A DNA stretch of 35,651 bases from a virus (IMGVR_UViG_3300038701_002120:1-35651), one strand, 5' to 3'; positions 2,263 through 29,060 are shown, counted from the stretch's first letter. Made by a program: numbers and translations. Notes: generated from the letters alone by a model not told the origin.

Positions 2263-3608
2263 TGTTAATTCGACCTTCTACATATTCAAAACCACTATTT
2301 ACAGAGAATTTTTACGAGTGTGATATTTGGGGAGGTCGTGGACGTGGCGGTTCTCATAATATGACGCTTTACGCTTTGTTTTCTATGGTAACTTCAACCT
2401 ACTTCAGAGGTTACTTTGTCAGGGCAATTCAAGGAACTGTTAGAGATTCGCTTTGGCAGGATTTTAAAGACCGAATTCAGGAAGTTTCAGAGCTAAACGA
2501 CTACGATTATTTCAAAGACTTTAAGCTAATTGATACCGATATGACAGCCGTTTATCTTCCAAACGGAAACTCTATAAAGTCAAAAGGATTCAAAGCAAGT
2601 TCTAAAAGCAATACGGCAAATATGAAGTCTATTGCTGGTGCAACTCATGTTATGATAGAAGAAACTGAGGAGGTCGGACAAGAAGAGTACAATAAACTAG
2701 CCGATTCACTTAGAACGATTAAAGCTCCTGTTAAAATTATTCGCTCCTGGAATGCGCCACCGAAGGAACATTGGTTAGTAAAAGACTATTACGATTTAAT
2801 GGAAAGCGGAGAGGAAGGATATTACAAGCTTAAATCTAAAAACCTTCCTAATCACTTATCAATATTTGGAACTTATAAAGACAATATTAAGAATCTTGAT
2901 CCTAATACGATTGCAAGGTATGAGCGTTACAAATTAACCCAGCCGAGATACTATTTTAATCAAATTAGAGGTTTAGTTTGTGACGGTGGAGACAGTAAAG
3001 TTTATTACGGCTGGAAGCGTATTAGTACAGAAGAGTTTATTGCTATCGACGGGGTTGAGGCTTACGGTCTTGATTTTGGAGACACAGCGCCAACAGCTTT
3101 AACTCATGTCAAATACAAAGACGGGGCTTTTTACAGGCGAGAACTCATGTACAAGCCTTTGAGGACTTTAAATCTCCAGCATAAAGAATACTTGAAAAAG
3201 ATTAGAGACACTATCCAGAGCCAACCAGAAGACGAACAAAATAACATTTGGTCTAAACATAGAGGATTACTCTCTTACGTGTTTTCTGAAATGGGAGTTG
3301 ATAAAAATATGCTCATGTTTTGCGATCCTGCTCAAAAGGGATTAATCATTGAGTTAAGACAGGCTGGATTCAATGCAATAGGAGCAAAAAAAGACAAGGC
3401 TGCTAATATAAATTTCATTAATAGAGGCTTGAATTATTACACAGAAGACTCTCCTAATATGGAAAATGAATACAACGGATATTATCTCGAAACTGACATT
3501 AACAAAGTTCCAATCGACGGAAAACCAATCAAAGGAAACGATCACTTAATGGAGGCACAAGAATACGGCTGTCGAGGCTTAAAAGACAGCTACGGAATTA
3601 TACTCTAA
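2262..3608 (+). CDS. terL: Terminase large subunit (ATPase-nuclease)
   Basis: The motor that translocates and cuts phage DNA. In the 448 residues the ATPase region has a P-loop position GGRGRGGSHN (24-33), a Walker B MIEETEE (131-137) and a coupling motif SWNAPP (162-167). The RNase H-like nuclease region has acidic residues in GLDFGD (D271), FCDPA (D355) and GNDHLMEA (D427). The canonical P-loop lysine (GKS) is replaced by Gly. I believe a GRGRGGS form recurs in related Bacteroidota terminases, where neighbouring arginines may substitute, so this is probably a lineage trait rather than damage. It belongs to the terminase_3/PBSX-like group. Length is normal. Confidence 0.93.
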   Translation: MLIRPSTYSKPLFTENFYECDIWGGRGRGGSHNMTLYALFSMVTSTYFRGYFVRAIQGTVRDSLWQDFKDRIQEVSELNDYDYFKDFKLIDTDMTAVYLPNGNSIKSKGFKASSKSNTANMKSIAGATHVMIEETEEVGQEEYNKLADSLRTIKAPVKIIRSWNAPPKEHWLVKDYYDLMESGEEGYYKLKSKNLPNHLSIFGTYKDNIKNLDPNTIARYERYKLTQPRYYFNQIRGLVCDGGDSKVYYGWKRISTEEFIAIDGVEAYGLDFGDTAPTALTHVKYKDGAFYRRELMYKPLRTLNLQHKEYLKKIRDTIQSQPEDEQNNIWSKHRGLLSYVFSEMGVDKNMLMFCDPAQKGLIIELRQAGFNAIGAKKDKAANINFINRGLNYYTEDSPNMENEYNGYYLETDINKVPIDGKPIKGNDHLMEAQEYGCRGLKDSYGIIL

Positions 3609-3614
3609 TTTGTC

Positions 3615-3637
3615 TTATTTAGAACGGTTCTAAATAA
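3615..3637. promoter_or_regulatory. 23-bp palindromic operator before the portal gene
   Basis: A perfect 23-bp palindrome has half-sites TTATTTAGAAC and GTTCTAAATAA around a single G. The inner part, TTAGAAC-N-GTTCTAA, has the 7-1-7 form of Fur/PerR-family boxes. The only other full copy is at 18663-18685, differing only in the centre base. In both cases an 11-nt gap separates it from a TAnnTTT -7 box, so it covers the -33 region. It is probably an activator site. Confidence 0.75.
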
Positions 3638-3648
3638 AATTTTAAAAT

Positions 3649-3656
3649 TATATTTG
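3649..3656 (+). promoter_or_regulatory. -7 box of candidate late promoter 1
   Basis: TATATTTG matches the Bacteroidota -7 consensus TAnnTTTG exactly. No TTTG lies at a correct -33 distance; the palindrome occupies that place. The portal ATG begins 18 nt after the box. This suggests an activator-dependent promoter for the head and tail genes. Confidence 0.6.
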
Positions 3657-3674
3657 TCTTGTTAACAGGCATAT

Positions 3675-4895
3675 ATGGGTTTTACATTTTCACTTAATTT
3701 AGGTCGTAATGGTTTGAAGAGTCGCTTCAAGAAATCCGTTTACTCTCTTTTTAATGCCACGCCTCAATACAACGACTTCAACGACGAGGCAGACAAAATA
3801 CAGGCTGTACTTACCAATCCAGCAGCTTTAAAAGTATTTGCTCTACAATGCGACTTATTTTCGTTAGCTACTATTCAGGTTAAAAAAGACGATAAAATTG
3901 TCGAAAACGATTCTGTTTTAAAGCTTTTTGAAAACCCTAACCCTTTTCAATCTCAAAGGCAATTCCTTTGGGATTTCATGTTTTGGAATATGTTAGGTAA
4001 CGCCGTTTTATACATTAAATCGGGGAATGTAGATCGAGAAAATAACATGATGTATTTCTTAGATACGTCTAGGCTTATCTTTCCAGGAAAACTAAAGAAG
4101 AAGATAGGTAGGTTAATTTTATCTAAGCAAAGTCTTAGAGAAATTGAAGACGAGAAAGTTGAATACAAAAACGAAGGAGGTAAATCTAACTTCTTCACGA
4201 TTAAAGAACTCTTATTTGTTTCCGATTTAACTAATAGTACGGGAAACTGGTTCAAAGGCACTTCAAGACTCGACGCTCTTTACAAGATAATAGCCAACTC
4301 TGAAGCTGGTATTGATAGTAAAAACATTAACGCTAGGTATTTAGGAAAATATATCGTTAACGGAAAGGTAGACGAGAAAAACGTCAATCTTCCAATGATG
4401 AAAAATGAAGAGAAAAAGGAGATTGAAGACCGCGTTGACGGAGACAAAAAGGTTTTTGCAGTTACTTCTCCAGTAACAGTACAAAGGTTTATCGAGCAAT
4501 CTCAAGTTTTAGAAAACCTAGACAAGAGTTATTTAGCTGACTATTACAAAATAGGAAAAATGTACGGGATTCCTAGAGACGTTCTTGAGGCTTACACAAG
4601 TAGTACTTATGAGAATCAAGAAAAAGCAAGAGGGTCGCACGTAAGCTACACCCTTTCGCCTAAAGGTTGTGATTTAGGAGACAGTATAGCTAAAAGGCTT
4701 GACTATCAAGAAAAGAAAATCTCTCTTGATTGGTCTCACCTTCCTTTTATGCAAGTATTTAAGAAGGATGAAGCTAAAGTAAATGAAACTAACGCTAAGT
4801 CTTTAGAAAAACTGATTAAAGCAGGAGTTACGCCTGAGAGCGCAGCATTAGCGCTGGGAATGGATGTAGAATTTAAAAAGAAGGAAAATGAATAA
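3675..4895 (+). CDS. Portal protein (HK97-like)
   Basis: This 406-residue protein would form the dodecameric portal ring at the capsid vertex through which DNA enters and leaves. It follows terL and precedes the protease and capsid genes, the standard order. Features typical of the HK97-type portal family are the N-terminal basic segment, LFENPNPFQSQRQFLWDFMF (about 85-105), the wing segment with NAVLYIKSGN, and the stem/crown stretch QVLENLDKSYLADYYKIGKM leading to GIPRDVLEAYTSSTYENQEK. The C-terminus is charged. It has its own candidate late promoter immediately upstream, unlike the terminase genes. Confidence 0.88.
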   Translation: MGFTFSLNLGRNGLKSRFKKSVYSLFNATPQYNDFNDEADKIQAVLTNPAALKVFALQCDLFSLATIQVKKDDKIVENDSVLKLFENPNPFQSQRQFLWDFMFWNMLGNAVLYIKSGNVDRENNMMYFLDTSRLIFPGKLKKKIGRLILSKQSLREIEDEKVEYKNEGGKSNFFTIKELLFVSDLTNSTGNWFKGTSRLDALYKIIANSEAGIDSKNINARYLGKYIVNGKVDEKNVNLPMMKNEEKKEIEDRVDGDKKVFAVTSPVTVQRFIEQSQVLENLDKSYLADYYKIGKMYGIPRDVLEAYTSSTYENQEKARGSHVSYTLSPKGCDLGDSIAKRLDYQEKKISLDWSHLPFMQVFKKDEAKVNETNAKSLEKLIKAGVTPESAALALGMDVEFKKKENE

Positions 4896-5010
4896 CAAGA
4901 AAATTGATTATAGCAAAATAGATAAAGGAAGGGTTGATGTAGAAAAGTTAAAGAAATCTGTAAAAGAAAAAGAGAAGATTAGTAGAAACGGTAAAAGCGT
5001 ACTAAAATGA
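4888..5010 (+). CDS. Small basic hypothetical protein
   Basis: A 40-residue, Lys-rich ORF (MNNKKIDYSKIDKGRV at the start) overlaps the portal gene end by 8 bases and the protease gene start by 4 bases (ATGA). Such tight overlaps on both sides are good evidence that it is translated. It has no recognisable domain. Position between portal and protease suggests an assembly-related role, but nothing in the sequence proves that. Confidence 0.6.
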   Translation: MNNKKIDYSKIDKGRVDVEKLKKSVKEKEKISRNGKSVLK

Positions 5011-5828
5011 AAAAGTTTATTTGTAAAGAATTAGACAACAAGCCTTTTGAAACAAAAGAGGCTTTGTTTGCTGAGTTAAAAGCTAAAGAACAAGAGATTA
5101 TTGACGCTAAAAAAAGCGAACCTAAAGAAACTCGAAGTCTTGAGCTGCCGTTACTTCAGAATTACGACTTCAAAGCTCCTTTCAAAACGGAGAAAGGTTA
5201 TTTCTACGCTATTATTAATACTACTAATATTCTCGATAGTCACGGAGATGTACACTTGCCTAAAATATGGAATAAAAGCGCAAAAGAGCAAAACGGTAAG
5301 ACGTATTATGTAGCGGATCACGAGCTTAAAATAAACGGCGTTATTGTGCGTCCTGAAAATGTAGAAATTCAACTACATAAAACCACTTTTAAAGAGTTAG
5401 GATATGATTTAGAAGGTTCTACCGTCGCTTTGGTTTTTAAAATGCCAATAGATAAAATCAAAAATAGCGCTGCAAAAGAAATTATAGACAATCAAGAGCA
5501 AGTTGAGAATTCAATTAGAATGAAATACATAAACCTAGTATTGTGTATTGACTCTTCTAACCCTGATTTAAAGAAAGAAAAAGAGAATTTCGACAAGTAT
5601 TACCCTCAAGTAGCTAATAAGGAAAAAGCCGACGAGCTTGGTTATTTCTGGGCTATTCTTGAAGGAGGAATTCACAAAGAAGGTAGCATGGTTTTATTTG
5701 GAAGCAATAGCGCAACTCATATCGTGTACCACCAAGAAGAAAAAGCCGACTCTAAGTCACTTTTACATATTGAGCCGTTCTCAGAAAACACTCAAGCAAA
5801 ACAATTATTTATTCAAAATTTAATCTAA
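5007..5828 (+). CDS. Prohead maturation protease (HK97 U35-like)
   Basis: The 273-residue protein has the fold signature of phage prohead proteases: a beta segment GYFYAIINTTNILDSHGDVH (about 67-86), where DSxGDV is the usual family motif, then the probable catalytic His in YVADHEL (about 101-107) and the probable catalytic Ser in the GGIHKEGSMVLFGSN region (about 220-234). It would cleave the N-terminal scaffold part of the capsid protein during maturation. The neighbouring capsid gene has exactly such an N-terminal coiled-coil segment. A 35-residue charged N-terminal extension is present. Confidence 0.8.
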   Translation: MKKFICKELDNKPFETKEALFAELKAKEQEIIDAKKSEPKETRSLELPLLQNYDFKAPFKTEKGYFYAIINTTNILDSHGDVHLPKIWNKSAKEQNGKTYYVADHELKINGVIVRPENVEIQLHKTTFKELGYDLEGSTVALVFKMPIDKIKNSAAKEIIDNQEQVENSIRMKYINLVLCIDSSNPDLKKEKENFDKYYPQVANKEKADELGYFWAILEGGIHKEGSMVLFGSNSATHIVYHQEEKADSKSLLHIEPFSENTQAKQLFIQNLI

Positions 5829-5833
5829 ACAAC

Positions 5834-7153
5834 ATGAAAAAAGATTTTTTAAAGTTTTTAGAAACTAAAAACATTTCAGAGGACGACTATAAAGCAAAGT
5901 CCGACGCTGAGAAAGCAGAATTGCACACAGAATTTTTCAATAACCAGTTTAAGGAATTGAAAAAATCTATTGAAGCAAAGCCAGACGCTAAGAAATTAGA
6001 AGATGCTGAAAAAGAGCTTAAAACCTTACAAGAAGGTATGAAAGATTACGTTAAGTCTTCTGACTTAGACGGTATTAAAAAGCAATTAAGCGAAGCTGAA
6101 GAGCTTATAGATCAGTTAAAAGAAAACGCTGGAACTTCTAGCAATGGAAGTGCTATCAAGAAATTATTAGACAAGAAAAAAACTGCTATTGACAAAATGG
6201 TAGAAAATAAGTCTGGTAATGTTGAAATGGTAGTAAAAGCTACTCAAACCGCTACCGATATCGGAGACAGAGACGTTTACGCAGAAATGGAAAGCGGAAC
6301 TAACAGAAAGCCTTTCAGACGCTTTAATATTGCTGCTCTGTTTAGAAGACTTCCTATCAAAAAAGAGTATTTGAAGTATAGAGAAGAAGATACGGTAACT
6401 AGAGACGCGAAAGTTGTTGTAAGGTGTGCTACTTCTACTCATAACACAAAGAAAAATTGGGTTATTAGAACTTTAGAGATTGCAAAAGTTCGTGATTTTA
6501 CTGATATCTGCGAAGATATGATGGACGATTACGATTTTGTAGAGGGAGAAATCAAAGAATTAGTTGAACAAAGTGTTGAGGCTAAAGAAGAGCAAGAGTT
6601 ATTGTCTGGTTCTGGTGACGGTTCAAACGGTACTTATTTGTCTATTGACACTATCTCTTCTGAGTTTTCTGCTGCAAATGCTTTAGCTTCTTTCGCTAAC
6701 GCTTTTCAAGCTCCTACTCTAGCAGAGTTAACGGCAGCAATGAAGTCTCAAATTGAGACATTCGGTCAAGAAAATGCCTGGAAACCTAACACAATCATTA
6801 TGAACTCTACTGACTTAGTGAAGTTTAAGCATCAAAAGAATGCTAACAATGATTATTTATTACCTCACTTCATTTCTACTAACGGAAATGTTTTAAGTGA
6901 TATGCAAATTGTAACCTCTCCTTTGATTGCTCCTAACACTTTGTATGTTATCGACACTAATCAAGGTGTTATTAGGGATAGAAAAGCTACTACGGTTTCT
7001 ATGTATTGGGAAAACAAAGATAATGCTGAGCATGAAATGGTTACAGTAAAAGCTTTAAAGCGATCTCAATTACACGTTAAAAACATTAATAGAGATGCGT
7101 TTATGAAGTGTTCTGATATCGCAGCAGCATTAACAGCAATCACTAAAGCTTAA
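5834..7153 (+). CDS. Major capsid protein (HK97 fold)
   Basis: This 439-residue protein has a Lys/Glu-rich coiled-coil N-terminus (about 1-115), which serves as an internal scaffold and is probably removed by the protease encoded upstream. An HK97-like capsid domain follows. Recognisable segments are the axial/peripheral part around EQELLSGSGDGSNGTYLSI (about 255-275), the WKPNTIIMNSTDLVKFKHQK stretch (about 315-335) and the C-terminal strand pair with VIDTNQGVIRDRK. Gene order portal, protease, capsid agrees. Clean spacing of 5 bases on each side indicates operon translation. Confidence 0.9.
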   Translation: MKKDFLKFLETKNISEDDYKAKSDAEKAELHTEFFNNQFKELKKSIEAKPDAKKLEDAEKELKTLQEGMKDYVKSSDLDGIKKQLSEAEELIDQLKENAGTSSNGSAIKKLLDKKKTAIDKMVENKSGNVEMVVKATQTATDIGDRDVYAEMESGTNRKPFRRFNIAALFRRLPIKKEYLKYREEDTVTRDAKVVVRCATSTHNTKKNWVIRTLEIAKVRDFTDICEDMMDDYDFVEGEIKELVEQSVEAKEEQELLSGSGDGSNGTYLSIDTISSEFSAANALASFANAFQAPTLAELTAAMKSQIETFGQENAWKPNTIIMNSTDLVKFKHQKNANNDYLLPHFISTNGNVLSDMQIVTSPLIAPNTLYVIDTNQGVIRDRKATTVSMYWENKDNAEHEMVTVKALKRSQLHVKNINRDAFMKCSDIAAALTAITKA

Positions 7154-7157
7154 TATC

Positions 7158-7550
7158 ATGGCAAAGAAAGGAAAAACAAAAATCAAGTTCTTGAAAGACT
7201 ATGCTCCTCGTAAAAAAGGAGAAGTTAAGGAGCTTGATACGAAACTAGCAGAATTTTATTTGAACAATGGAATTGCCGAGCTTGCCGTAAATGAATCTGA
7301 AACAGAAGATAAGTCTGGTTGTGCTGACTGCGAAAAGTCTGCTCAAGTTGCTGCTGATTTAGCAACTGCTAACGAGTCTTTGAAAGCAGCAAACGAAAGT
7401 CTTGCTACTAAAACTCAAGAGTTAGAAGAAGCTAACGGAAAAGTAACCGAGTTAGAAGGTAAATTAAAGACTTCTGAGGAAAGTTTAGTAACTGCTAACG
7501 AGTCTTTGAAGACAGCAAACGCAGCTTTGAAGAAGCGGAAGCTAAGTTAA
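7158..7550 (+). CDS. Coiled-coil head-associated protein, probably frameshifted at its end
   Basis: The N-terminal part (1-45, KIKFLKDYAPRKKGEV) resembles small phage head proteins next to the capsid gene. Residues 70-125 form a repetitive coiled coil of ANESL, EELE and similar units. The frame ends at AALKKRKLS, but the -1 frame continues from about 7528 with the same heptad character (EEAEAKLKEATKK) to a stop at 7570, just before the next gene. A single lost A after GCTTT would restore a continuous coil. It may be a real mutation or a sequencing error; I see no classic slippery heptamer for programmed slippage. Function is unknown, possibly capsid decoration or head completion. Confidence 0.7.
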   Translation: MAKKGKTKIKFLKDYAPRKKGEVKELDTKLAEFYLNNGIAELAVNESETEDKSGCADCEKSAQVAADLATANESLKAANESLATKTQELEEANGKVTELEGKLKTSEESLVTANESLKTANAALKKRKLS

Positions 7551-7576
7551 AAGAAGCAACTAAAAAGTAAAAAGCA

Positions 7577-8185
7577 ATGATAACGTCTCGCTCATTTTTT
7601 AACGGAAGCATTCAGATACCTAATGCACAAGACAAGTCTCCTAATAGCGACTTGCTTGGTAACGGCATTAAGTTAGATATGTTTATTGAGGAATTTGAGC
7701 GAGACATATTAACCGATTGTCTAGGTTATTCTCTTTACACAGAGTTTGAAGCATTTTTAGACCCTGAAAAAGAGAACGGATTGAAAGACGGCGCTCCTGG
7801 AAAGTGGAACGATTTACTAAACGGTAAAGAGTATCAATTAAACGGAGTTCCTGTAAAATGGAGAGGTTTAACTTTTAAAGAAGGTGAAAACGAAAAAAGC
7901 TTAATCGCTTATTATGTTTTCTGCGAATTTTTAAGCAATGATATTGTCAATTATAGAGGAACTGGAGTACAGAAAGAAAAGGCGAAAAACGCTGAGTCTG
8001 TTTCTGCTGATCCTTTATTTGTAAATGCGTATAGAAAATTCTTTAAAATGACTGAGTATAGTCGTTCTAATAACGGATTGAGAAGCTTATATGACTTCTT
8101 GAGAGACATGAACGATATCGACTCAGAAACTTACTCTAGCTGGTGTCCTAAAAGATTTGAAAATATTAATCTTTTTGGAATATGA
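7577..8185 (+). CDS. Head-tail connector protein, DUF6712-like
   Basis: A 202-residue protein of a type found after the capsid gene in many Bacteroidota phages. Characteristic parts are LDMFIEEFERDILTDCLGYS (about 33-52), with a helical bundle typical of gp6-like adaptors, then YVFCEFLSNDIVNYRGTGV and the C-terminal SLYDFLRDMNDI. It would form the ring that joins the portal to the tail. It overlaps the next gene by 4 bases (ATGA). Family naming is from memory and not searched. Confidence 0.65.
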   Translation: MITSRSFFNGSIQIPNAQDKSPNSDLLGNGIKLDMFIEEFERDILTDCLGYSLYTEFEAFLDPEKENGLKDGAPGKWNDLLNGKEYQLNGVPVKWRGLTFKEGENEKSLIAYYVFCEFLSNDIVNYRGTGVQKEKAKNAESVSADPLFVNAYRKFFKMTEYSRSNNGLRSLYDFLRDMNDIDSETYSSWCPKRFENINLFGI

Positions 8186-8691
8186 TAATAGTAGAAGAAA
8201 GATTAAAGGAGTTGTTTAAAACGCTCCCTCCTGTTGTAAAAAACAAGAAGAATTATGTACACGATTATAGTTTCGGTACTCAGGAAGATTTGTTGCTGTT
8301 TCTATCAAAAAGAGCAGAGGAAATCTACCCTCTTATTTGGTTGGAAACTCCAATTACAAAAACAGGCAGAGAGAACAATATTACAATCAAACTTAAATTG
8401 ATTATCGCTATTAATACCAGCTCGTCTATTAGCAATCTGCAAAGACTAGAAGAGTCTTTTAAACCAGCTTTAAACCCTATGTATAAGAACATAATCAAAG
8501 CTTTAAAAAGGTCAGGATTCACTAGAATTATTGATGAAGACAAAAACAAAAGAACTGATTATTACAATTACGGATTAAAGCAAGTAGGTAAAAAAGGAAC
8601 TGAAAACGTCGCCTCCGACATTTGGGATGCTATAAAGCTTGAATGTGAGCTAGCGCTTACGAATTGCGAACAAAAAAAAATTAATTATTAA
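8182..8691 (+). CDS. Probable neck or tail-completion protein
   Basis: The 169-residue protein mixes helices with a beta-rich centre (NNITIKLKLIIAINT, about 65-80), as in small head-closure and tail-completion proteins. The segment SKRAEEIYPLIWLETPI is often seen in this position. It lies between the connector and the major tail protein, where the tail terminator or neck proteins are coded. No catalytic motif is visible. The name is mainly from position. Confidence 0.55.
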   Translation: MIIVEERLKELFKTLPPVVKNKKNYVHDYSFGTQEDLLLFLSKRAEEIYPLIWLETPITKTGRENNITIKLKLIIAINTSSSISNLQRLEESFKPALNPMYKNIIKALKRSGFTRIIDEDKNKRTDYYNYGLKQVGKKGTENVASDIWDAIKLECELALTNCEQKKINY

Positions 8692-8702
8692 AACATACGA
8701 TC

Positions 8703-9554
8703 ATGTCAGTATATCAAGAATTGTGCGACGGTGGTGAGTCAACAGCACCGAACACAGGTTTAAAAAACCAAAACTGTACAGAAACTAAATTAGATATTCC
8801 TATTCTTTCAAATGGATTTGAGTTTGCTTCTGTTGCAGATTTCAAAACAGTTGCCTCATGGATGGCAGCAAAAGCAGCTAAAAGCATTGTGCCTTTATAC
8901 CCTGCTTATGAATTAGCGGACGCTAGTACAGAAGACACCAAGTTTGAAACAGGAAACTTCTCTAAAGTAACGGCTAAAGGTGTAGAGAAAATAGTTTACG
9001 AAAACTACGTTAGCTTACAGGCTTACGACATCTTAAAGTCTTACGAGGAAAACGAGTCTTATAGATACTTGTTTGAGTTCAACGAAGGAGAAGACTATTC
9101 TGGAGTTTTTGCTTCTGATGGAGTGAAAGTAAAAGGACGTAAAATCAAGTCTTTTACAGTAACTAGAACCAGAGCTACAAAAGATAAAATTCCTTTCGTA
9201 AAAGTTGAGATCACTTTTGACGATAAAGACGACATTAGAAATGCTGTCGTTGTTGAAAGCGATTTATCAAAAGAAGACTTAGAAGGAATCTACGGCGTAG
9301 ACGGTACTGTTTCTGGAAGCCCTACTTCTAGCGAAATTGTTGTTGAGGCTAAATTTAGCGGATCAACTATTAACGCTGAAACTATCGCTTTAGCAGATTG
9401 GAACTACACAGGAGGTACAATTACTGCTTCTGTTTTCGCTAATGGCAAATACACTCTTTCGGGTACTGGATTAACTTCTGGAACATTGTCTACGGGAGTT
9501 ATTGAACAGTCGAATATGATGTTACAGTTTTCGGACTTAGCAGTAACTATCTAG
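8703..9554 (+). CDS. Major tail protein with C-terminal Ig-like domain
   Basis: A 283-residue protein with a beta-rich tail-tube domain (about 1-200). The first 30 residues are rich in Gly, Thr and Cys and lead to a DIPILSNGFEFASV strand. The C-terminal part (about 205-283) is Ser/Thr/Gly-rich, with SGSTINAETIALADWNYTGG and GKYTLSGTGLTSGTLSTG, and resembles the Ig-like surface domains that decorate phage tail tubes. It would polymerise around the tape measure to form the tube. Position between neck genes and tape-measure chaperones is normal. Confidence 0.75.
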   Translation: MSVYQELCDGGESTAPNTGLKNQNCTETKLDIPILSNGFEFASVADFKTVASWMAAKAAKSIVPLYPAYELADASTEDTKFETGNFSKVTAKGVEKIVYENYVSLQAYDILKSYEENESYRYLFEFNEGEDYSGVFASDGVKVKGRKIKSFTVTRTRATKDKIPFVKVEITFDDKDDIRNAVVVESDLSKEDLEGIYGVDGTVSGSPTSSEIVVEAKFSGSTINAETIALADWNYTGGTITASVFANGKYTLSGTGLTSGTLSTGVIEQSNMMLQFSDLAVTI

Positions 9555-9558
9555 TAAG

Positions 9559-9750
9559 ATGGTAGAATTTAAAGGAATTCAATTCGGCGAGGGTTACAAA
9601 ATGACTCTTGCCGAATTCAAAAAAGCCTTCTCTGCGGTGCTTAAAGCTAAGAATCTTAGCACCGACGAAGTGAAGCAAGCCCATAAATTATACAATAAAG
9701 AAAATGGGAACAATATTCGACCTTCAGACGAGAGCCAAGAAGCTAACTAA
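9559..9750 (+). CDS. Small tail-assembly protein
   Basis: A 63-residue helical protein (MTLAEFKKAFSAVLKAKNLS) with an acidic C-terminus. It starts 4 bases after the major tail protein and its end overlaps the next gene by 47 bases in another frame. The position between tail tube and tape measure is where tail assembly chaperones are encoded. No clear slippery heptamer is present in the overlap, and the next gene has its own ATG, so a fusion by frameshifting is possible but unsupported. Confidence 0.55.
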   Translation: MVEFKGIQFGEGYKMTLAEFKKAFSAVLKAKNLSTDEVKQAHKLYNKENGNNIRPSDESQEAN

Positions 9751-10147
9751 AACAAGAATTAAGAATGACCTATACAGGTTTATTAAAACTCTTGAAGAAG
9801 AGTTAGCAGCTTATAATAGAGCTACACTATTTGAAGAAAGCGAAGATGTTAAAGGAAAGCCGATAGGTTTTTACTCTCCTGCAACAGAAATCATTTCTGA
9901 CGGAGAAAAAAAAGCTGGAGAGCCTTTTACTCTTAAAGACAAAGGAGATTTTTTAGACGGTTTATTTGCCAAAGTTCAAAAAGACAGCGTGTTTTTTGAT
10001 ACTAAAGACTCCAAGAAAAAAGAGGTTTTAAAAAACCTTCTATCTGAAGACATTTTCGGATTACAAAAAGAAGATTTAAACAAGGTAATAGACCGAAAGC
10101 TATTGCCTTTTTTTCAAAACTATTTCAGAAAACAACTATTAGGATGA
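9704..10147 (+). CDS. Hypothetical tail-module protein
   Basis: A 147-residue, mostly helical protein. It begins with a basic helix-rich segment (LQTRAKKLTKTRIKNDLYRFIKT without its ends), has a GFYSPATEIISDGEKKAGEPF centre and ends with a basic amphipathic helix (LPFFQNYFRKQLLG). Proteins of this type appear before the tape measure in Bacteroidota prophages. It overlaps both neighbours, by 47 and 4 bases. I do not recognise a biochemical function; tail morphogenesis is inferred from context. Confidence 0.55.
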   Translation: MGTIFDLQTRAKKLTKTRIKNDLYRFIKTLEEELAAYNRATLFEESEDVKGKPIGFYSPATEIISDGEKKAGEPFTLKDKGDFLDGLFAKVQKDSVFFDTKDSKKKEVLKNLLSEDIFGLQKEDLNKVIDRKLLPFFQNYFRKQLLG

Positions 10148-10773
10148 TTTATAGGTCAGTAGATACTATTCCAGGAAAGATATTTTTCAAGATTATTGAA
10201 ACAGGGGATTTATTGCTGTTAACTGACGAAAAAGAACCTTTAGAAGATACTGAAAAAGAGAAATTCTATACAGAACTTCAAGAGATTTGGTTAAAAATTC
10301 AAGAAGAAGACGACAAAATAGCTTCAAACAAAGAATCTGTAAAGGTAATTGATATTTCTAGCCGACTTGAAGAGTTGACTGCTAGACAAGCAGCAGTTGG
10401 ATTCGCAGTCCATGTTTTAAAATTGAATCCTGAAAACAAAGACAAAGAGCTAATTCAGTTAATAAAGGATCGTAAATATAAGTTCCATTTCGAGAATAGT
10501 AAAAACGCTAAGAGAGTTGAGAAGCAATACTTGAAGGATTTAGACAGAATTGAAAAAGAAAACAAGTCCGAAAGTATTAGGATCAAGTCACTTCAAGACC
10601 AACTTCCAGAGATAGAAGAAAATAACGAAAACATAAACTTTGACGAAGCAGTTATTAGTTACGGTGTTATTGTAGGCTCTGGATTTATAGATACTAATAA
10701 AATTACTCAGTCACAGTATAGAGCTTTGATTAAGATAGGAAACCAAAAAATGAAAGCTTTAGAAAATGAGTAA
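10144..10773 (+). CDS. Probable tail assembly chaperone
   Basis: A 209-residue, charged, helical protein directly upstream of the tape measure, whose start it overlaps by 8 bases. It has a long coiled-coil region (about 115-165, KRVEKQYLKDLDRIEKENKS) and a compact C-terminus with QSQYRALIKIGNQKMKALEN. A chaperone that coats the tape measure during tail assembly is expected here. It lacks signal peptide and membrane segments. The name is based on position and composition. Confidence 0.55.
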   Translation: MIYRSVDTIPGKIFFKIIETGDLLLLTDEKEPLEDTEKEKFYTELQEIWLKIQEEDDKIASNKESVKVIDISSRLEELTARQAAVGFAVHVLKLNPENKDKELIQLIKDRKYKFHFENSKNAKRVEKQYLKDLDRIEKENKSESIRIKSLQDQLPEIEENNENINFDEAVISYGVIVGSGFIDTNKITQSQYRALIKIGNQKMKALENE

Positions 10774-13700
10774 AGGTAAAGTTACATTCGCGGAGTCAAT
10801 AGACAAAAAAGTGTTTGATATCGGACGCTTAATAGCTGAAGGAAATAAACCTGGAATAGATAGCTTTATTGAAATGAAAAGCGCTATCGAAGCTTTGAAA
10901 ATTTCTGCTTTAGGATATGCTGAAATAGAAAAGCAATTTAAGGTTTCGGACGGGAGAAGAGAATTCGTAACAATCAAACAAAAAGAAGTTGAGTTTAGCA
11001 CTTTGGCTTCTAAAGCTGTTGTTGCTGAACAAAAAGCTAAACAATCTCTAATCGACACAGAGAGAAAAGCGATTGATTTAGCTAATAAAAAGCAAAGAGC
11101 GCAACAGAAAACAATCAAGCTAACCGAAAAAGAAAAACTAGAGACAAGAATTTTAAACAGAGGAAAGAGAGAGGCTGCAATTCTTTCTTCTAAATTATCT
11201 ACTGAATACGAAAAGCAAGCTGTAAGACTAACACAGCTTAGAAGAAGATATAAAGATGTCGCTCTGGTAGAAGGAGAGACAAGTAAGAACGCTATAAAAC
11301 TTAGAGCGGAAATACTAAAGCTAGACTCGGCTTTAAAAAGAGTTGATGCTAACGTAGGTCAATTTCAAAGAAACGTTGGAAACTACGGTAAAGCAATGGC
11401 TTCGGCTAGAAATGCAGCAAGAAACTTAGCTTCGGCTATGGGTCTTGTTGGAGGCGCTTTCTTAGTTGTTCAAGTTATAAGAGACGCTATTAAAGTTGTT
11501 CGAGACTTTGAGAAGTCAAACGCTACGCTATCGGCGATCCTTCAGGTTGAGAGAGAAGATATGCAAGGGCTTACTGACGATGCAGTTAGATTAGGAGCTA
11601 CTACTGTAAAAACCGCTAACGAAGTAACTGAGCTTCAAATCGCTTACGCTAGACTTGGTTTTGAACAAAAACAAATACTCGAATTAACAGAATCTACAAT
11701 TAGCGGTTCTATCGCTATGAATGCCGAACTAGACAAGACGGCTAATTTAGTGGGAGCTGTTGTCAATACATTTGACGATCTAAGCGCAACAGACGCGCCT
11801 AAAATAATTGATATCCTTTCGCTTTCAACTGCTAAAAGCGCATTAAACTTTCAAAAATTAGAAACAGGAATTCCGATTGTTGCAGGAGCAGCAAACGCAG
11901 CAGGAGTTCCGTTTACGAAACTTATTGCTTTAATGGGTAAGCTTTCCGATTCTGGAATAGATGTTTCCTCCTCTTCTACTGCTCTAAGAAACATTTTTAT
12001 TGAAAGTGCTAAACAAGGACTGAGTTACGAGCAGATACTTGAAAAAATTAAAAAGAGTCAAGATAAATTAACTGCTTCTAACGACGAATTCGGAAAAAGA
12101 GCTGCGGTTTCTGCTACTGTTTTAGCAAACAATATCGACAAGACAAAAGAGTTAGACGAAACGCTACAAAATGCAGGAGGAACAGCCGAGAGAATGGCTA
12201 ACAAAGAGCTTGATACTTTAGACGGAGCAATAAAGCTATTGAGATCAGCTTGGGAAGGTTATATTCTAAAACAAGACGAAGCTTCAGGAAGTTCTACAAG
12301 CCTAAAAGGTATTATTTCAGGATTAGCTAATAACTTAGATAACATTTTCTCTGTAATTGGCACAGTAACAAAAGCGTATATCGCTTATAAATTAGCCGTT
12401 CTTTTAGCTAGAGTTCAAACTTCTCTAATGAATTTACAGCTAAGAACTACTAGAAAGTCGGCTTTAGCTGCTCGATTTGGAATAAGTAAAGCTTCTCTTG
12501 CCTTCGCTCAATTCAACAAGGTCTTAAAAGCTAATATTCTAGGGTTAATTGTATTAGGGGTTACTGGCTTAATTTACCTTTTTGATAAATTAAACAAATC
12601 CATTTTAGACACCGCAGACGAATTGCATAAATCTAACGAGGAGTTTATTAAGCAAGCTGAAGAAACTCAGTCTGTAAATACAGAGCTTGGCAAGATGGTT
12701 GACAGGTACGAAGTACTGAAAAACAAAACCAAACTTAACAGTAAGGAGCAAAAAGAGCTAAACGAGATCGTAAAAAAGATTGCTAAAACTGTTCCTGGAG
12801 CAGTTACCGAGATAAATAAATACGGTGACGCACTCGAAATAAATACCGAAAAGACTAGAGATTACATTGCTAAACAAAATGAAGTTAGCAAGCTTCAGGC
12901 TGAAGTAAATATTGACAATCAAAGAAAGGCTTTAAAGGAGCTAAAAAACGAGCAAGAAGCATTCAATAGAGTTTCTGAAGACTCAACAGGTACGTTTATC
13001 AAAGGTTTCGGAGTTATTGCAAAAACAAACGGCGCTCTAGTTAAAATTACTACTCAATTTTCTAAAACTGGAAAGGCTAGGTTTGTAGAAACCAAACTTA
13101 CAAAAGCACAAGTTCTCGAGTACAAAAATTATCAATTAGCTCTTGAGCAAAAAATACTAACAGCCGAAAAAGATATTCAAACGAACGAAGATTTAATTGC
13201 CTCAATAACTGGAGAAAAGAACGCGAGACAATTAGCTACGGAAGCAAACGAAAAAGCAATCAAAGAAGCTGAGGCTTTACGAGCAAAAAAGGAAGCTGAA
13301 ATTAGAAGCGTTGAGAATCTAAAAGAAAAAATAAAAACGCTTAGAGCTGAGCAGGAAGGTCTCACTTTGTCAGATAAAAAAAGGTCTGTTGAGATCAATA
13401 AACTAATCAAGCTTTATCAAAAAGAAATTGATAAGATATTAGGTGTAGTGAAAGCTAACCGAAGCGCTGCTAAAGCTGCTAAAGAACGAGAAGCTAAAAG
13501 AAAGAAGTTAATTCAAGACTCTTTCAATTTAGAGAGTTTCGTTTTGAAGCAAAAAATTAAGCTCCTGGAAGAAGACGCTAAGAACGAGAGAAAATCTTTT
13601 AAAGAGAGAGAGCAAGCTATCGTTAAAGCAAGTGAATTAGAACTTGACTTAGCTTTAGAAACCGCTATTACAAAGCTTTTACTAAAACAGGACTTTTCAA

Positions 13701-15034
13701 GACAAGAAATAGAGAGTTTGTTAGAAGACGGAATTGCTTCTAATGAGCTTCGTAAAAAATTAGGAGACGAAGAGCTTTTAATTATACAGCAATTTGAAGC
13801 AAAAAAAAGAGAAATCCGAAGAGGTAGCGAGGATAGTATAGATAATTTAACAGTAGAAAAATTAAAGAAAAGGGCTGAAAAAGAAAAAGCTATTAAAGAA
13901 AAAGCTCTTTACGATGAAATTATAAAGGAAAACGAAGCATTTAAAAATAGAGAAGGAGTTTACAAAAATGCTGAAGATGCTGTTGAGCTTAGAGAAAGAA
14001 GAATAGCTGATATAAAAAAGAAATACGCTCTTGAGGCTCTGAACACTCAAGTAAAGGCTATTGAAAAACTATTATCAACAAGTAAGCTAAGCGCCGAGGT
14101 AAGAGCAAAATATGAAGCTGATTTAGCTAAATTAAAGTCCGAAATATCAAATCTTACCACCGAAGATTTTATTGAAAACCAAGACAGAGAGGTTATAAAA
14201 ACTCAAGAAAAGGTTGATAGAATATTCGATATATCATATCGGTTAGCTGATGCTCTTGAGGGGTTAGGAAATGCAATATTTGATTCTAGAATTCAGAAAA
14301 TAGATGACGAGATTTCTGCAAATGAATCCAAATACGAAAAGTTATTAGAGAATGAAAATCTAACTGAAGAGCAAAGAGAAACAATTGAAAAAAAGAGAGA
14401 GGCAGATAGAAAAAAACTTGAAAAGAAAAAAAGAGAAGAGCAGAGGAAACAAGCAATATTTGGAAAAGCTATGGCTATAGCTAATATAGGTCTTAGTACC
14501 GCTCAAGCTATAATTGGAGCTTTAGCCCCTCCTCCTGTAGGTTTAGGTCCACTAGCTGGAGCTGCTTTAGCTGGAGTCGCTGGAGCTGTTGGAGCTATAC
14601 AATTAGCTGCGGCATTAGCTTCTCCTATCCCGAAATATGCTTTAGGAACGGATTATCACCCTGGAGGATATGCTTTAGTAGGAGAAAAAAGACCAGAAGT
14701 AATAACTGAACCAAATAAAACTCCCTACATAGTAAGTGACCCTACAATATTAAACTTAGCTAAAGGAACAAAAGTGACACCTAGTTTAGAAGAGTATCAA
14801 AGATTAATGGGTGTTTCTAGTTTAATAGCATTAAAAAAAGAAAATCATAAGTCAAGAGAATACAGTAAAAAAGTTTCTGAAAGAAAAAATGAAGGTAGAT
14901 ATAATGAAAAAAAAATTGAGGAAGCTATATCAAATGGATTTAAAAAGCAGAAAGTACATTTCCACACAACAGCTAACGCTAGTGTAGATTTGAACTATGC
15001 TTATTGGAGGGCTAAAAATTTAAACAGAGAATAA
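10766..15034 (+). CDS. Tail tape measure protein
   Basis: At 1422 residues this is the longest protein and sets tail length. It has long coiled coils at the N-terminus (about 60-200) and in the last third (about 870-1260). A minor-tail domain spans about 230-480, with VRDFEKSNATLSAILQVERE and the NIFIESAKQGLSYEQILEK stretch. Hydrophobic segments near 222-245 and 588-606 probably act in DNA ejection through the cell envelope. The Gly/Ala-rich C-terminal portion ending in YALGTDYHPGGYALVGEKRPE is the typical end of such proteins. From about base 14200 onward the sequence seems more AT-rich with different codon use, which may mark a module boundary; I did not compute this. Confidence 0.92.
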   Translation: MSKGKVTFAESIDKKVFDIGRLIAEGNKPGIDSFIEMKSAIEALKISALGYAEIEKQFKVSDGRREFVTIKQKEVEFSTLASKAVVAEQKAKQSLIDTERKAIDLANKKQRAQQKTIKLTEKEKLETRILNRGKREAAILSSKLSTEYEKQAVRLTQLRRRYKDVALVEGETSKNAIKLRAEILKLDSALKRVDANVGQFQRNVGNYGKAMASARNAARNLASAMGLVGGAFLVVQVIRDAIKVVRDFEKSNATLSAILQVEREDMQGLTDDAVRLGATTVKTANEVTELQIAYARLGFEQKQILELTESTISGSIAMNAELDKTANLVGAVVNTFDDLSATDAPKIIDILSLSTAKSALNFQKLETGIPIVAGAANAAGVPFTKLIALMGKLSDSGIDVSSSSTALRNIFIESAKQGLSYEQILEKIKKSQDKLTASNDEFGKRAAVSATVLANNIDKTKELDETLQNAGGTAERMANKELDTLDGAIKLLRSAWEGYILKQDEASGSSTSLKGIISGLANNLDNIFSVIGTVTKAYIAYKLAVLLARVQTSLMNLQLRTTRKSALAARFGISKASLAFAQFNKVLKANILGLIVLGVTGLIYLFDKLNKSILDTADELHKSNEEFIKQAEETQSVNTELGKMVDRYEVLKNKTKLNSKEQKELNEIVKKIAKTVPGAVTEINKYGDALEINTEKTRDYIAKQNEVSKLQAEVNIDNQRKALKELKNEQEAFNRVSEDSTGTFIKGFGVIAKTNGALVKITTQFSKTGKARFVETKLTKAQVLEYKNYQLALEQKILTAEKDIQTNEDLIASITGEKNARQLATEANEKAIKEAEALRAKKEAEIRSVENLKEKIKTLRAEQEGLTLSDKKRSVEINKLIKLYQKEIDKILGVVKANRSAAKAAKEREAKRKKLIQDSFNLESFVLKQKIKLLEEDAKNERKSFKEREQAIVKASELELDLALETAITKLLLKQDFSRQEIESLLEDGIASNELRKKLGDEELLIIQQFEAKKREIRRGSEDSIDNLTVEKLKKRAEKEKAIKEKALYDEIIKENEAFKNREGVYKNAEDAVELRERRIADIKKKYALEALNTQVKAIEKLLSTSKLSAEVRAKYEADLAKLKSEISNLTTEDFIENQDREVIKTQEKVDRIFDISYRLADALEGLGNAIFDSRIQKIDDEISANESKYEKLLENENLTEEQRETIEKKREADRKKLEKKKREEQRKQAIFGKAMAIANIGLSTAQAIIGALAPPPVGLGPLAGAALAGVAGAVGAIQLAAALASPIPKYALGTDYHPGGYALVGEKRPEVITEPNKTPYIVSDPTILNLAKGTKVTPSLEEYQRLMGVSSLIALKKENHKSREYSKKVSERKNEGRYNEKKIEEAISNGFKKQKVHFHTTANASVDLNYAYWRAKNLNRE

Positions 15035-17253
15035 TGAATAACGCAGCATACTATAACAATATAAGACACACATTAGAGTGTATTCATGTTCAGCCATTAG
15101 TAATAACTGACCCTATAGGCTATGAAACATCTGAAGAAGAGTTTACTAGAACATTCAAGAATGTTGGTATCATATCTAATTTCTCAACAGATTTAAGATT
15201 CGTAGATGATGCAAAAGATTTTATTGAAAACATTATTGAAAATTACGGACTTAATGAAACTATTACAATAAAAAAAGAAGGACAAGACCCAAATACAGAT
15301 GAATGGTTAGAGCTTTATACAAGTACATTAGACTTGCTTAGTTACAGGGTAGAGAATTATTACTTAAAAACTAAAATAAACTCTGGGGGAATAGACAAGA
15401 TTTTTAAAGCTAGAGAGTCCGAGAAAATAGAAGTTGAAAAAACTCTATCTATTGATGGAACTGTTATACCAAGTTTAGAAAAAGTTTACTCCTCAACACA
15501 AGGTAGGGATATTTTTCTTAACTCATTATTAGAGGTGAAAATCAACGATGATACTGCTTTTATGAGTAATTCTGATGTGGGTGGAGTTAGAGGAAAAACT
15601 GTTTGTGTACCTATCAGTATCAAGAATCGTTCGGACACTTTAGTTCAAACACCAATACCAAACACAACAATAGATGATAAAACAGATGATAGGTCTGGTG
15701 ATGGTGTTTTAGGAATAATGTTTTATGTGAATTCTGATAGAGATAAAACTTTAAACATATCCTTTGACATAGAATTCAAGATCGATGTATACACTCAGAA
15801 TTTAGACGCAGCAAACTTTTGGTTTAGGCTAGCTACTTATCAAAATGGATCTGATTACAATTACAAAAGCGCAATTAATATATGGCAAGTAGTTAATGTT
15901 CAAAACTATAACGGTTCAACACAAGTGTTTTCATTTTCTCAGGATATAGATTTAAAACAAGGAGAAAGCTTGTCTTTACAATTCAGTCAACAAATGAACG
16001 GAGAAAACACGATTACGGGTCAAGTGGGAAGACTTAACACAACCTCTTATGATATTGTATGTAATAATTTTAAAATAAAAGAAGATAGTTCTTTTCCATC
16101 AACAACAACTCAAACATTATTGCTTCATGATTTAGGCGAAAGGTTATCTTATATAATAACAGGGAGATCAGGAAGATTTAAGTCTTCAGTACTTGGAAGA
16201 CAAGAATTAGGCTATCAAACTGATGGATATTGGGCATATTTAGGCACATATTGCGGTCACTGGTTAAGAGGTTTTGGCTTGGAGGATAGCTTGTATAAAA
16301 AATACGCTACATCTTTTAAGGATTTCTCTCAATCATTGAAAGCTGTATTAAATGTTCATGTTGGCTTTCAGTCTATAGGATTTGAAGAGCAAGTAATAGC
16401 TGAGCAATTAACTCATTTTTTCAACCCGAACATAGTTTTAGTTTTACCTAATCCTCTAACCAATGTAAAAAGGTATGTAGCTGAAGATTTGATATTTTCT
16501 GGAATTAATTGCGGATATGAAAAAGGAGGCAATGTCGAAGGTATTATGGGCTTAGATGAACCTAATGGTGAAGCTAATTGGGTTTCAAATATGTCTGCAT
16601 CTAAAAATAATTTATCTATACGCTCAAAATATATTGCAGGTGTTTATGACGAAGAGAAACAAAGAAGGTTTCAAAAAAACGATTATCCTACTCAAGATAC
16701 AGACAGAGATAAGGATATTTTTATTAAGGACTTAAAAAAGGTTGAAGGTTATTTAGTTGAAAGAACATGGCAAGATGATTTTCAGTCAGAACCAACAGGT
16801 ATATTTAGCCCAGAAACTGCAAAAAATTTAAGGCTCTCCCCTGCTAATAATTTGAGAAGACATGGAAACTTAATTTCTACAGCTCTTAGCCATTATCAAA
16901 ATGAATCATTATCCTTTGGTAGTTCCTCCGCTAATAGTGGAATGGTGACACAGATAATAGGGAGTTCATCTATTAAAGAAAACGGGAGTGTCTTGAATTC
17001 AGATTTAGATAATAGGCTTTTTGAACCTTTTTATATTGAAGGAGATCATTTAGTTGATACTTCAATAATGAACACATTAAAAGATTTCTCAACCTTTGAT
17101 AATGTTCAGGTTTCAAATTTTTATTGTAAAGTACAATTTACTTTAGAAGGTGATCCTACTTTAAGGTTTGGCTTCATAATGAGTTTAAAACCTAACGGAT
17201 CAGGTAAATGGAAATTTATAGAAGCATCAAATATAACATCACCACAACAATAA
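15034..17253 (+). CDS. Distal tail or baseplate protein
   Basis: A 739-residue protein whose ATG overlaps the last base of the tape-measure stop. This is the place of the distal-tail protein in siphophages, and large proteins of this kind follow the tape measure in Bacteroidota phages. The N-terminal part (about 1-180) has short beta/helix units including DLRFVDDAKDFIENIIENYG. The middle (about 190-350) is beta-rich, with Asn/Thr/Ser-rich strands resembling a jelly-roll carbohydrate-binding fold. Near 430-470, CGHWLRGFGLEDSLYKKY is notable. No enzyme motif is recognised. The protein probably forms the tail tip. Confidence 0.6.
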   Translation: MNNAAYYNNIRHTLECIHVQPLVITDPIGYETSEEEFTRTFKNVGIISNFSTDLRFVDDAKDFIENIIENYGLNETITIKKEGQDPNTDEWLELYTSTLDLLSYRVENYYLKTKINSGGIDKIFKARESEKIEVEKTLSIDGTVIPSLEKVYSSTQGRDIFLNSLLEVKINDDTAFMSNSDVGGVRGKTVCVPISIKNRSDTLVQTPIPNTTIDDKTDDRSGDGVLGIMFYVNSDRDKTLNISFDIEFKIDVYTQNLDAANFWFRLATYQNGSDYNYKSAINIWQVVNVQNYNGSTQVFSFSQDIDLKQGESLSLQFSQQMNGENTITGQVGRLNTTSYDIVCNNFKIKEDSSFPSTTTQTLLLHDLGERLSYIITGRSGRFKSSVLGRQELGYQTDGYWAYLGTYCGHWLRGFGLEDSLYKKYATSFKDFSQSLKAVLNVHVGFQSIGFEEQVIAEQLTHFFNPNIVLVLPNPLTNVKRYVAEDLIFSGINCGYEKGGNVEGIMGLDEPNGEANWVSNMSASKNNLSIRSKYIAGVYDEEKQRRFQKNDYPTQDTDRDKDIFIKDLKKVEGYLVERTWQDDFQSEPTGIFSPETAKNLRLSPANNLRRHGNLISTALSHYQNESLSFGSSSANSGMVTQIIGSSSIKENGSVLNSDLDNRLFEPFYIEGDHLVDTSIMNTLKDFSTFDNVQVSNFYCKVQFTLEGDPTLRFGFIMSLKPNGSGKWKFIEASNITSPQQ

Positions 17254-17257
17254 CAGT

Positions 17258-18460
17258 ATGTTAAATCAAGTAAAACCTTATTTTTTTATATCTAAATATA
17301 ATTCTGTGCTTTTTGCGAAATGCGTAGAATGGGATAATCACAACAATCCAAAGACGATAGAAAACACATTAAGCTATCAAGAAGATGGATTGAATGATAA
17401 ATCCTTTTATCAATTGTTTCAGACAAACGATGCAATAAGAACCCAAATTAAGTCAAGCTATGAAAACCATCAAGTAGTAATGTATGGAGATAACGGCGTT
17501 CAAAGAGAAATTAGCCTAATCAAGAGAACAGATAATTTAAATATTTCGGATTACAGAACAGCAAAAATACTAGAGAAAGATGGTAAAATGGTTGTTTATT
17601 TCGGTCAAGGTAACATCTTGAATGAATCAGATAGCTCTATTAAACATTCTTATGATCTAAAGCAGTATGTTCCAAGTTGGATGATTGTTGGTAAAAATTT
17701 AGATATTGAAGGTTATGGAGAGTTGAATATAAATAAAGTGGTTTGGTTGAGAAACGAGCAATTGTACGGTTTAGAATTAAATTTTCAATATAGCAGTTCA
17801 GAAGTTATAGACATTAAGGTTAAAAGTGTTTACAACAAGTTTGAGTTTGATGTATATGAATTCGATATTGACTTCTACTCATTTACAGAAGGTAAATACC
17901 AAATAGAAATTAAAGCTACTAACGATGGGTTTTCAGACGCTACTTATTTAAGTGAAAGAATTCATTTAAAAAACACTCACGAAAATACACACATAATTAT
18001 CTATTCGCATCATAAGAACACTCAAATAAATTACAGTTGGGGAATTCAACACATGATGAGGTTAGAATATTTATCTCCATTAAAATACAGTCCAGGAGGG
18101 GATAATAATATTCACAAAACAGATAACAATTCAATTATATTAAGCGCAACAGATTATGAGTTGTATGAGGCAACTTTAAAGCCACTACCCACAGCTATGG
18201 CTACTAAAACAACATTAGCGTTATCAAGAAGAGAGTTATTTGTTGATACTAGGTCTTATGTTGTAGAAGGTAAGCCAGATGTTCAAAAGCTTGGAGATAC
18301 CAATTTACATGAATACAAAATAGTTCTTACGTTATCGAATGACGAATATAGTAATAGAAATAATAGCTTTTCAACTTTAGTAAGTAATAGGTCTTATTTA
18401 AAAATAGGAGAAGGATACTTAAAGTCTAATAATTCAGGATTCCTTATTATCAATCAGTGA
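17258..18460 (+). CDS. Tail tip or baseplate protein
   Basis: A 400-residue beta-rich protein four bases after the preceding tail gene. It has a DVYEFDIDFYSFTEGKYQIE segment (about 200-219) that looks like a fibronectin or Ig-like repeat and a C-terminal part rich in Asn, Ser and Tyr. No known enzyme motif is present. Its 3' end overlaps by 27 bases with the minus-strand microprotein gene, which ends the co-oriented run of tail genes. Function is assigned by position between tape measure and tail fibre. Confidence 0.55.
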   Translation: MLNQVKPYFFISKYNSVLFAKCVEWDNHNNPKTIENTLSYQEDGLNDKSFYQLFQTNDAIRTQIKSSYENHQVVMYGDNGVQREISLIKRTDNLNISDYRTAKILEKDGKMVVYFGQGNILNESDSSIKHSYDLKQYVPSWMIVGKNLDIEGYGELNINKVVWLRNEQLYGLELNFQYSSSEVIDIKVKSVYNKFEFDVYEFDIDFYSFTEGKYQIEIKATNDGFSDATYLSERIHLKNTHENTHIIIYSHHKNTQINYSWGIQHMMRLEYLSPLKYSPGGDNNIHKTDNNSIILSATDYELYEATLKPLPTAMATKTTLALSRRELFVDTRSYVVEGKPDVQKLGDTNLHEYKIVLTLSNDEYSNRNNSFSTLVSNRSYLKIGEGYLKSNNSGFLIINQ

Positions 18461-18628
18461 TTTTAAGTTCTTATCTGAAATATGAAGATGATTTTCAGTT
18501 TTATAATTATTTATTGTAATACTTACTTCTTCTTCATGCGATTGACTACTGGAAAACAAGCTTATAAGAGCTTTTGAAATAGATATAACAATTATGAATA
18601 CAGCAATTAAAAGAAAGAAAAAATCCAT
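18434..18628 (-). CDS. Minus-strand single-pass membrane microprotein
   Basis: A 64-residue ORF opposes the whole late operon. Residues 3-25 are strongly hydrophobic (FFFLLIAVFIIVISIS) and the rest is a soluble tail with EEEVSITINNYK and a charged end. The first ATG is at 18628; two codons upstream is only a TTG. It fills most of the otherwise empty gap between two tail genes, and its C-terminal 27 bases run into the convergent tail gene. The palindromic operator lies 35 bases upstream of its start and could act on both strands. It may be a lysogenic-conversion gene or invaded ORF. It could also be chance, but its composition looks like a true membrane protein. Confidence 0.55.
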   Translation of the reverse strand: MDFFFLLIAVFIIVISISKALISLFSSSQSHEEEVSITINNYKTENHLHISDKNLKSLIDNKES

Positions 18629-18662
18629 AATCAAAAATAATAAATTCTTTTTAATAAATTTC

Positions 18663-18685
18663 TTATTTAGAACTGTTCTAAATAA
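18663..18685. promoter_or_regulatory. 23-bp palindromic operator before the tail fibre gene
   Basis: The same palindrome as that before the portal gene, with half-sites TTATTTAGAAC and GTTCTAAATAA around a T. Eleven nt separate it from TATTTTTA, the same spacing as at the other copy. It lies between divergent genes. Confidence 0.75.
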
Positions 18686-18696
18686 TAATATTTTAC

Positions 18697-18704
18697 TATT
18701 TTTA
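18697..18704 (+). promoter_or_regulatory. -7-like box of candidate late promoter 2
   Basis: TATTTTTA matches TAnnTTTG except for its last base. It stands at the same distance from the palindrome centre (23 nt) as the perfect -7 box at 3649. The tail-fibre ATG follows 14 nt later. On its own it would be unconvincing in AT-rich DNA; the shared geometry is the evidence. Confidence 0.5.
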
Positions 18705-26157: not shown

Positions 26158-26227
26158 TTTGCAATTTAGTAATAAAAAAACTCATTGAAATTAGCTTTAA
26201 TAAACTGACAATCAATGAGTTTTGAAG

Positions 26228-29027: not shown

Positions 29028-29032
29028 AAAAA

Positions 29033-29050: not shown

Positions 29051-29060
29051 AATCTAAACC

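Follow-up and report, generated by a model that had tools for sequence, protein, structure and literature searches.

Fur-type palindromes in place of the -33 element at candidate late promoters of Bacteroidota phages

Among phage middle and late activators that replace the -35 contact of a promoter is MotA of T4, with which the ArpU/RinA-type late regulators may be compared. To our knowledge, late gene control in the phages of Bacteroidota has hardly been described. Here we analyze a 35,651-nt stretch of viral DNA (hereafter the window) in which, as in the T4 MotA and ArpU/RinA-type systems, a candidate regulator gene lies before the late operon and the promoters have a -10/-7 element without a -35/-33 element. 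The protein family and the box of the window differ from those of these systems, and activation is proposed here from the DNA sequence.

A second point of comparison is the stx1 promoter of Shiga-toxin phage, which is controlled by host Fur (PMC5552940). Like the window promoters, it is a phage-borne promoter with a Fur box; whereas host Fur represses the toxin gene at stx1, the boxes in the window stand at head and tail promoters of a phage that encodes a Fur domain of its own. A literature search for phage Fur boxes or phage-encoded Fur returned only stx1-type or unrelated work, and one for Fur boxes at structural promoters of Bacteroidota phages found no report.

Paired palindromes before the portal and tail-fibre-position genes

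The preliminary description of the window had noted two identical 23-bp palindromes and proposed them as parts of activator-dependent late promoters. The elements of these regions and the genes around them are as follows.

822-1244, + strand: candidate late regulator, a beta-beta-beta-alpha module (aa 1-38) and a Fur-type winged helix (about aa 45-130)
1599-2057, + strand: terminase small subunit, downstream of the candidate regulator (PHROG 1482, E=5e-41; Pfam Sf6_terminase)
2262-3608, + strand: terminase large subunit, ending 6 nt before box 1 (Pfam Terminase_3, E=1e-18)
3615-3637, no strand: box 1, a 23-bp Fur-type palindrome, TTATTTAGAAC-G-GTTCTAAATAA, upstream of the portal gene
3649-3656, + strand: -7 box TATATTTG, a full TAnnTTTG, 11 nt after box 1
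3675-4895, + strand: portal gene, the first after box 1, 406 aa (Pfam Phage_portal PF04860, E=5e-12)
18434-18628, - strand: divergently oriented ORF for a small membrane protein of 64 aa (from ATG), adjoining the intergenic region of box 2
18663-18685, no strand: box 2, a 23-bp Fur-type palindrome, TTATTTAGAAC-T-GTTCTAAATAA, between the divergent small ORF and the tail-fibre-position gene
18697-18703, + strand: -7-like box TATTTTT, 11 nt after box 2, without the final G
18719-21286, + strand: tail-fibre-position gene, 855 aa, named by synteny only
34424-35086, + strand: small serine recombinase, present besides a tyrosine integrase

Both window sites match TTATTTAGAAC-N-GTTCTAAATAA exactly, so the palindromes are as perfect as had been described; they are not fully identical, the central base being G in box 1 and T in box 2. 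The window holds no further copy with three or fewer mismatches, and two copies arose in 0 of 100 shuffles of it. With its central three bases left free, the palindrome was found in at least 118 stretches of the IMG/VR virus collection, in which a scrambled palindrome of identical composition had 0 matches. This free-centre pattern was used instead of the exact 17-mer with a C/G centre, whose matches were mostly conserved coding sequence and chance sites. The possibility that the palindromes behave as terminators was not borne out: their RNA hairpins are weak (-6.4 and -6.2 kcal/mol), no U-tract follows them, and the first palindrome was passed over by a terminator scan of its surroundings. 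An intrinsic terminator, with its G+C-rich hairpin and U-tract, was accordingly rejected. We conclude that the window palindromes are neither chance occurrences nor terminators.

A TAnnTTT element lies exactly 11 nt after each palindrome, as had been noted, and the ATG of the structural gene follows 15-18 nt further on (at 3675 and 18719). No TTTG was found at the -33 distance of either promoter, which upholds the earlier reading on this point as well. The 18719-21286 product has no Pfam or PHROG match of its own, and its name rests on the presence of a tail-fibre gene at the same place in relatives; in one of them (G004), the gene at this position matches a tail fibre PHROG. The product of the divergent ORF is a single-helix membrane protein whose homologues form a cluster found around the same box in at least eight phages, and this ORF may share box 2 as a divergent promoter.

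Elsewhere in the window, the stretch at 26225-26270 (GCGGGAACTGGACTCGAACCAGTGACCTTCGGGTTATGAG), next to the integrase gene, resembles the 3' part of a tRNA gene with a Met-like anticodon, and because of this likeness and location it is probably the attachment site. An exact 22-nt direct repeat (CTAAAATACTGATTATCAATTA) occurs at 2086-2107, between the terminase genes, and at 26295-26316, beside this putative attachment site.

Box recurrence and spacing in phages and hosts

The Polaribacter phages Freya and Danklef carry a homologue of the 822-1244 gene, gp09 in Freya, just before their terminase genes. Ahead of tail-module genes stand two perfect boxes (TTATTTAGAATnATTCTAAATAA); a third box, with one mismatch, precedes the portal gene, at the same place as box 1. 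These phages thus share with the window a Fur-domain gene and boxes before the portal gene, a tail-module gene and a tail-protein gene. They differ from it in that the two domains of the protein are in swapped order, the box centre is T/A and not C/G, and the 23-mer of the two perfect sites lies only 1-3 nt before the -7 element, compared to 11 nt in the window. The published description of these phages makes no mention of Fur (PMC8776804).

In ten long virus records, as in the Leeuwenhoekiella phage Arctus_1, a box lies upstream of the first head gene, in the intergenic region between the divergent membrane ORF and the tail-fibre gene, or at both places. The intergenic position of box 2 is occupied by a box in Freya, Arctus_1, G004, G007, G014, G015, G016, G021, G022, G025 and G034, and two phages with a portal of another family (G013 and G024; phrog_6547) likewise have a box before the portal gene. 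The compared phages are partly related, many records are fragments, and these counts are not fully independent. That many phages have boxes ahead of portal or head genes and of the tail-fibre gene, with a closely constrained spacing to TAnnTTTG, supports the initial assignment as late promoters. A near-identical palindrome (93% over 28 nt) is also present in Prevotella Lak phages, which have 540-kb genomes (e.g., MK250020.1, 353904-353931).

The box is absent from the sister phage of the window (G036/L088), its closest relative by portal (75% identical). In this phage, the recognition helix of the Fur-like protein has diverged, and the late promoters share the sequence TAATTTTCAAwATTTGCCTCGA upstream of the portal gene (12670-12736) and of a tail gene (28979-29072, both in L088 orientation). 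Loss of the palindrome in related phages, which had been named as evidence against the proposal, is therefore seen in one relative, whose Fur-like domain has diverged as well; Freya, Danklef and others keep their boxes.

We analyzed the distance from box to -7 element in a non-redundant set of 83 phage sites from which near-identical flanks had been removed. TAnnTTTG lies 13-17 nt after the 17-mer at 31 of the 83 sites (about 2 expected) and 4-8 nt after it at another 14, with Poisson P values against the local baseline of ~5e-25 and ~9e-8, respectively, for sites that are partly related and not fully independent. The spacing falls into two registers (about 4-9 and 13-17 nt) that sometimes occur in one phage (4, 6 and 17 nt in Freya; 7 and 15 nt in G016). 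At host sites (n=103) there are no peaks at the phage distances, and one peak is present at 27-30 nt.

Of the 47 phage promoters whose box lies at 4-17 nt, 0 have a TTG at -33, compared to 7 of the 14 host promoters in which the box is located further upstream. The phage value follows from the position of the box, since the palindrome contains no TTG, and the finding is that the box takes the place of the -33 element rather than that TTG is absent. As expected of activator-controlled late promoters, in which a -35/-33 element is weak or missing, several of these sites share a box that is fixed relative to the -7/-10 element. A -7 element without a -33 element has the look of an activator-dependent promoter; the two registers argue the opposite way.

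When 85,000 species genomes were searched, the palindrome was found mostly in Bacteroidota. In these hosts it lies upstream of genes for SufS, SodB, FeoB, FeoA, HemA, rubrerythrin, AhpC, TonB receptors and Fe-S assembly, and of a fur gene; ten of the downstream gene products were confirmed with Pfam. The fur gene preceded by the box belongs to the type with 35-42% identity to the Fur domain of the phage. Because the same palindrome precedes iron and oxidative-stress genes of Bacteroidota hosts, we assign it to the Fur/PerR-type boxes predicted for this regulon. The window boxes have the odd-centred inverted-repeat form of sites at iron and peroxide genes of related hosts, and the original suggestion that their 7-1-7 core is of Fur/PerR form gains support both from these host sites and from the Fur DNA-binding domain encoded by the phage.

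The regulon boxes and the phage boxes have the same odd-centred TTAGAA-nnn-TTCTAA with TTAT/ATAA flanks. In contrast to the regulon boxes, those of phages prefer T[C/G]A at the centre and take the -33 place, whereas the commonest box position in host promoters is further upstream, half of those promoters having an intact -33 element. In Flavobacterium sp. ALJ2, clear boxes with one or no mismatch are present only at a prophage site and at SufS, the other matches being chance-like; a match to the 15-bp core is thus not enough to define the host regulon.

The Fur-domain protein and the module fused to it

The 822-1244 gene lies just before the terminase genes. Its product matches Pfam FUR (PF01475; E=1.6e-9, above the cut-off) over profile positions 2-73 of 121, and the domain shares 42% identity with the DNA-binding domain of the main Flavobacterium Fur (E=4e-22), compared to no more than 23-27% with other Fur-family paralogues. 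The top PDB matches of an AF2 model (pLDDT 79) are all PerR/Fur proteins; the input alignment contained two Fur-family proteins, which may have helped the fold. The C-terminal metal-binding and dimerisation domain is absent, as the match stops at profile position 73 of 121 and the protein ends soon after the wing. Profile match and model together indicate a protein that has a Fur winged-helix domain without being a complete Fur regulator. It shares with the Fur/PerR family (PF01475) this domain and the recognition-helix motif RVS[KR]AT[IL][FY]NT, and differs from it in lacking the metal/dimer domain and in having an unrelated N-terminal module instead.

A direct protein search of virus contigs found no relatives of this product, and a search with an alignment found only the sister phage. 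No Fur domain was accepted by Pfam FUR in 35 box-bearing virus records, a search that may miss diverged domains; one weak match, inside an S24 repressor, was judged spurious. Just upstream of the 822-1244 gene, the window contains an odd tRNA-like gene with an undetermined anticodon (444-529), and a tRNA of undetermined type likewise precedes the Fur-domain gene of Danklef at a short distance.

The module in front of the Fur domain is about 35 aa long (IKGGKVFVNIEGEMVETRDPKLIGLAILDSLE). It occurs as a stand-alone protein, encoded beside the terminase genes, in phages that have boxes but no detected Fur domain. With the module as the only criterion, a scan of virus contigs yielded 28, of which 19 have boxes, including 12 of the 12 that are at least 40 kb long. 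Boxes are present in 0 of 21 module-less portal relatives, among them 0 of the 10 that are at least 38 kb, and for long contigs the association of module and box has a Fisher P of 1.5e-6, with shared descent ignored. Among 299 Flavobacteriaceae genomes, the module has a single occurrence, in Flavobacterium sp. ALJ2, where it lies at a distance of 3.4 kb from the box that had first revealed the prophage of this strain. The module is fused to the Fur domain in both orders (N-terminal in the window, C-terminal in Freya) and, in contig L426, to a diverged Fur-like domain; the form in G036 is only weakly similar. It was not found in the box phages G013, G024, G030 and Arctus_1. Its fusion to the Fur domain in some phages and its separate presence in other box-bearing ones suggest that the module acts together with a Fur-type protein.

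Candidate regulators of the box promoters

We tentatively favor a model in which Fur-box late promoters are activated by the phage Fur-domain protein, and consider it to fall just short of an even chance. The palindromes would be Fur-type operator boxes that replace the -33 element in the promoters of the portal/head and tail-fibre operons. The 822-1244 product, expressed from the region that directly precedes the terminase genes, would most likely bind these boxes in the window phage and supply the missing RNA polymerase contact, like activators that replace a -35 region, probably through its N-terminal module. We infer activation by a bound regulator because the promoters have a good -7 element but no -33 element; the conserved position of the box there and the place of the gene before the terminase genes also favor it, and we count the lost boxes and diverged Fur-like helix of the sister phage as likely support. 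Against this model, a variable distance between box and -7 element is atypical of an activator but poses no difficulty for a repressor, and with two registers, occlusion by host Fur would also fit. In addition, the phage protein lacks a Fur dimerisation domain although the box is palindromic, and the window boxes have C/G beside the centre where the host-type consensus has T/A. Since no Fur-domain match was obtained in most box phages (diverged domains may be missed), these would need another binder, perhaps host Fur.

The main alternative, possible but in our view doubtful, is that host Fur acts as a repressor, iron-loaded Fur on the boxes blocking the late promoters in the lysogen. Relief could come from induction, iron loss, peroxide, titration by phage copies, or an anti-Fur protein, which would be the 822-1244 product or, elsewhere, the stand-alone module. 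The boxes do match the palindrome of the host Fur regulon, many box phages have no Fur-domain match, and in both registers the centre of the box overlaps the -33/-7 region, as that of an operator may. There is precedent in stx1 (PMC5552940), and Fpa/YlaN of Staphylococcus is an example of an anti-Fur partner protein (PMC11559061). However, promoters repressed in this way would have no -33 element even when free, host Fur-box promoters mostly have the box elsewhere, Fur, constantly present in iron-replete cells, would stand in the way of lytic growth, and there would be little reason to fuse an anti-Fur module to the DNA-binding domain of a Fur protein. The fusion of module and Fur domain, in both orders and in diverged forms (clearly in L426, with weak similarity in G036), would fit a role of host Fur as only a DNA-binding adaptor: the phage module would recruit box-bound host Fur and RNA polymerase, and the window and Freya phages would have freed themselves of the host protein through the module-Fur fusion. 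This would unite phages with and without a Fur domain of their own, and the module does accompany boxes in phages without a detected Fur domain; it could also have been inherited simply with one structural lineage, and its absence from other box phages (G013, G024, G030 and Arctus_1) adds to our view that an adaptor role is unlikely.

Direct silencing of the late genes by a phage CI-like S24 repressor bound to the palindromes is very improbable. In G014 (L355, 49913), G016 (L356, 2766) and G022 (L359, 3082), the cI start codon is indeed preceded at 2-11 nt by a one-mismatch palindrome, but the likelier cI operators are repeated even-centred palindromes over the early promoter that are different in each phage, and the cI region of the window has no box. 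CI was rejected as the box binder, as cI regions have these other, phage-specific repeats; the weak boxes before cI in three phages would fit a regulator that also shuts off cI. We give almost no credence to chance, a terminator or a recombination site without a regulatory role. A perfect inverted repeat in a genome that encodes a small serine recombinase might suggest the last of these, yet the crossover sites of small serine recombinases are even-centred, whereas the palindromes have an odd centre. The scrambled-palindrome control, the weak hairpins without a U-tract and the fixed spacing to the -7 boxes all argue against any such reading.

Returning to activation at Fur-type boxes in its most general form, it is conceivable, though on present sequence comparisons rather doubtful, that in a family of Bacteroidota phages a small module turns box-bound Fur, either that of the host or a captured metal-blind domain, into a switch for the late genes, one that substitutes for the -33 contact and ties phage maturation to host Fur and iron. 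If activation by the phage protein is correct, these phages would offer a concrete promoter architecture with a named regulator and a partner module, directly testable in the cultured phages Freya and Danklef. A host Fur domain would have been captured and re-used, stripped of its sensor, and a host regulator of iron and oxidative stress would be linked to the production of phage particles.
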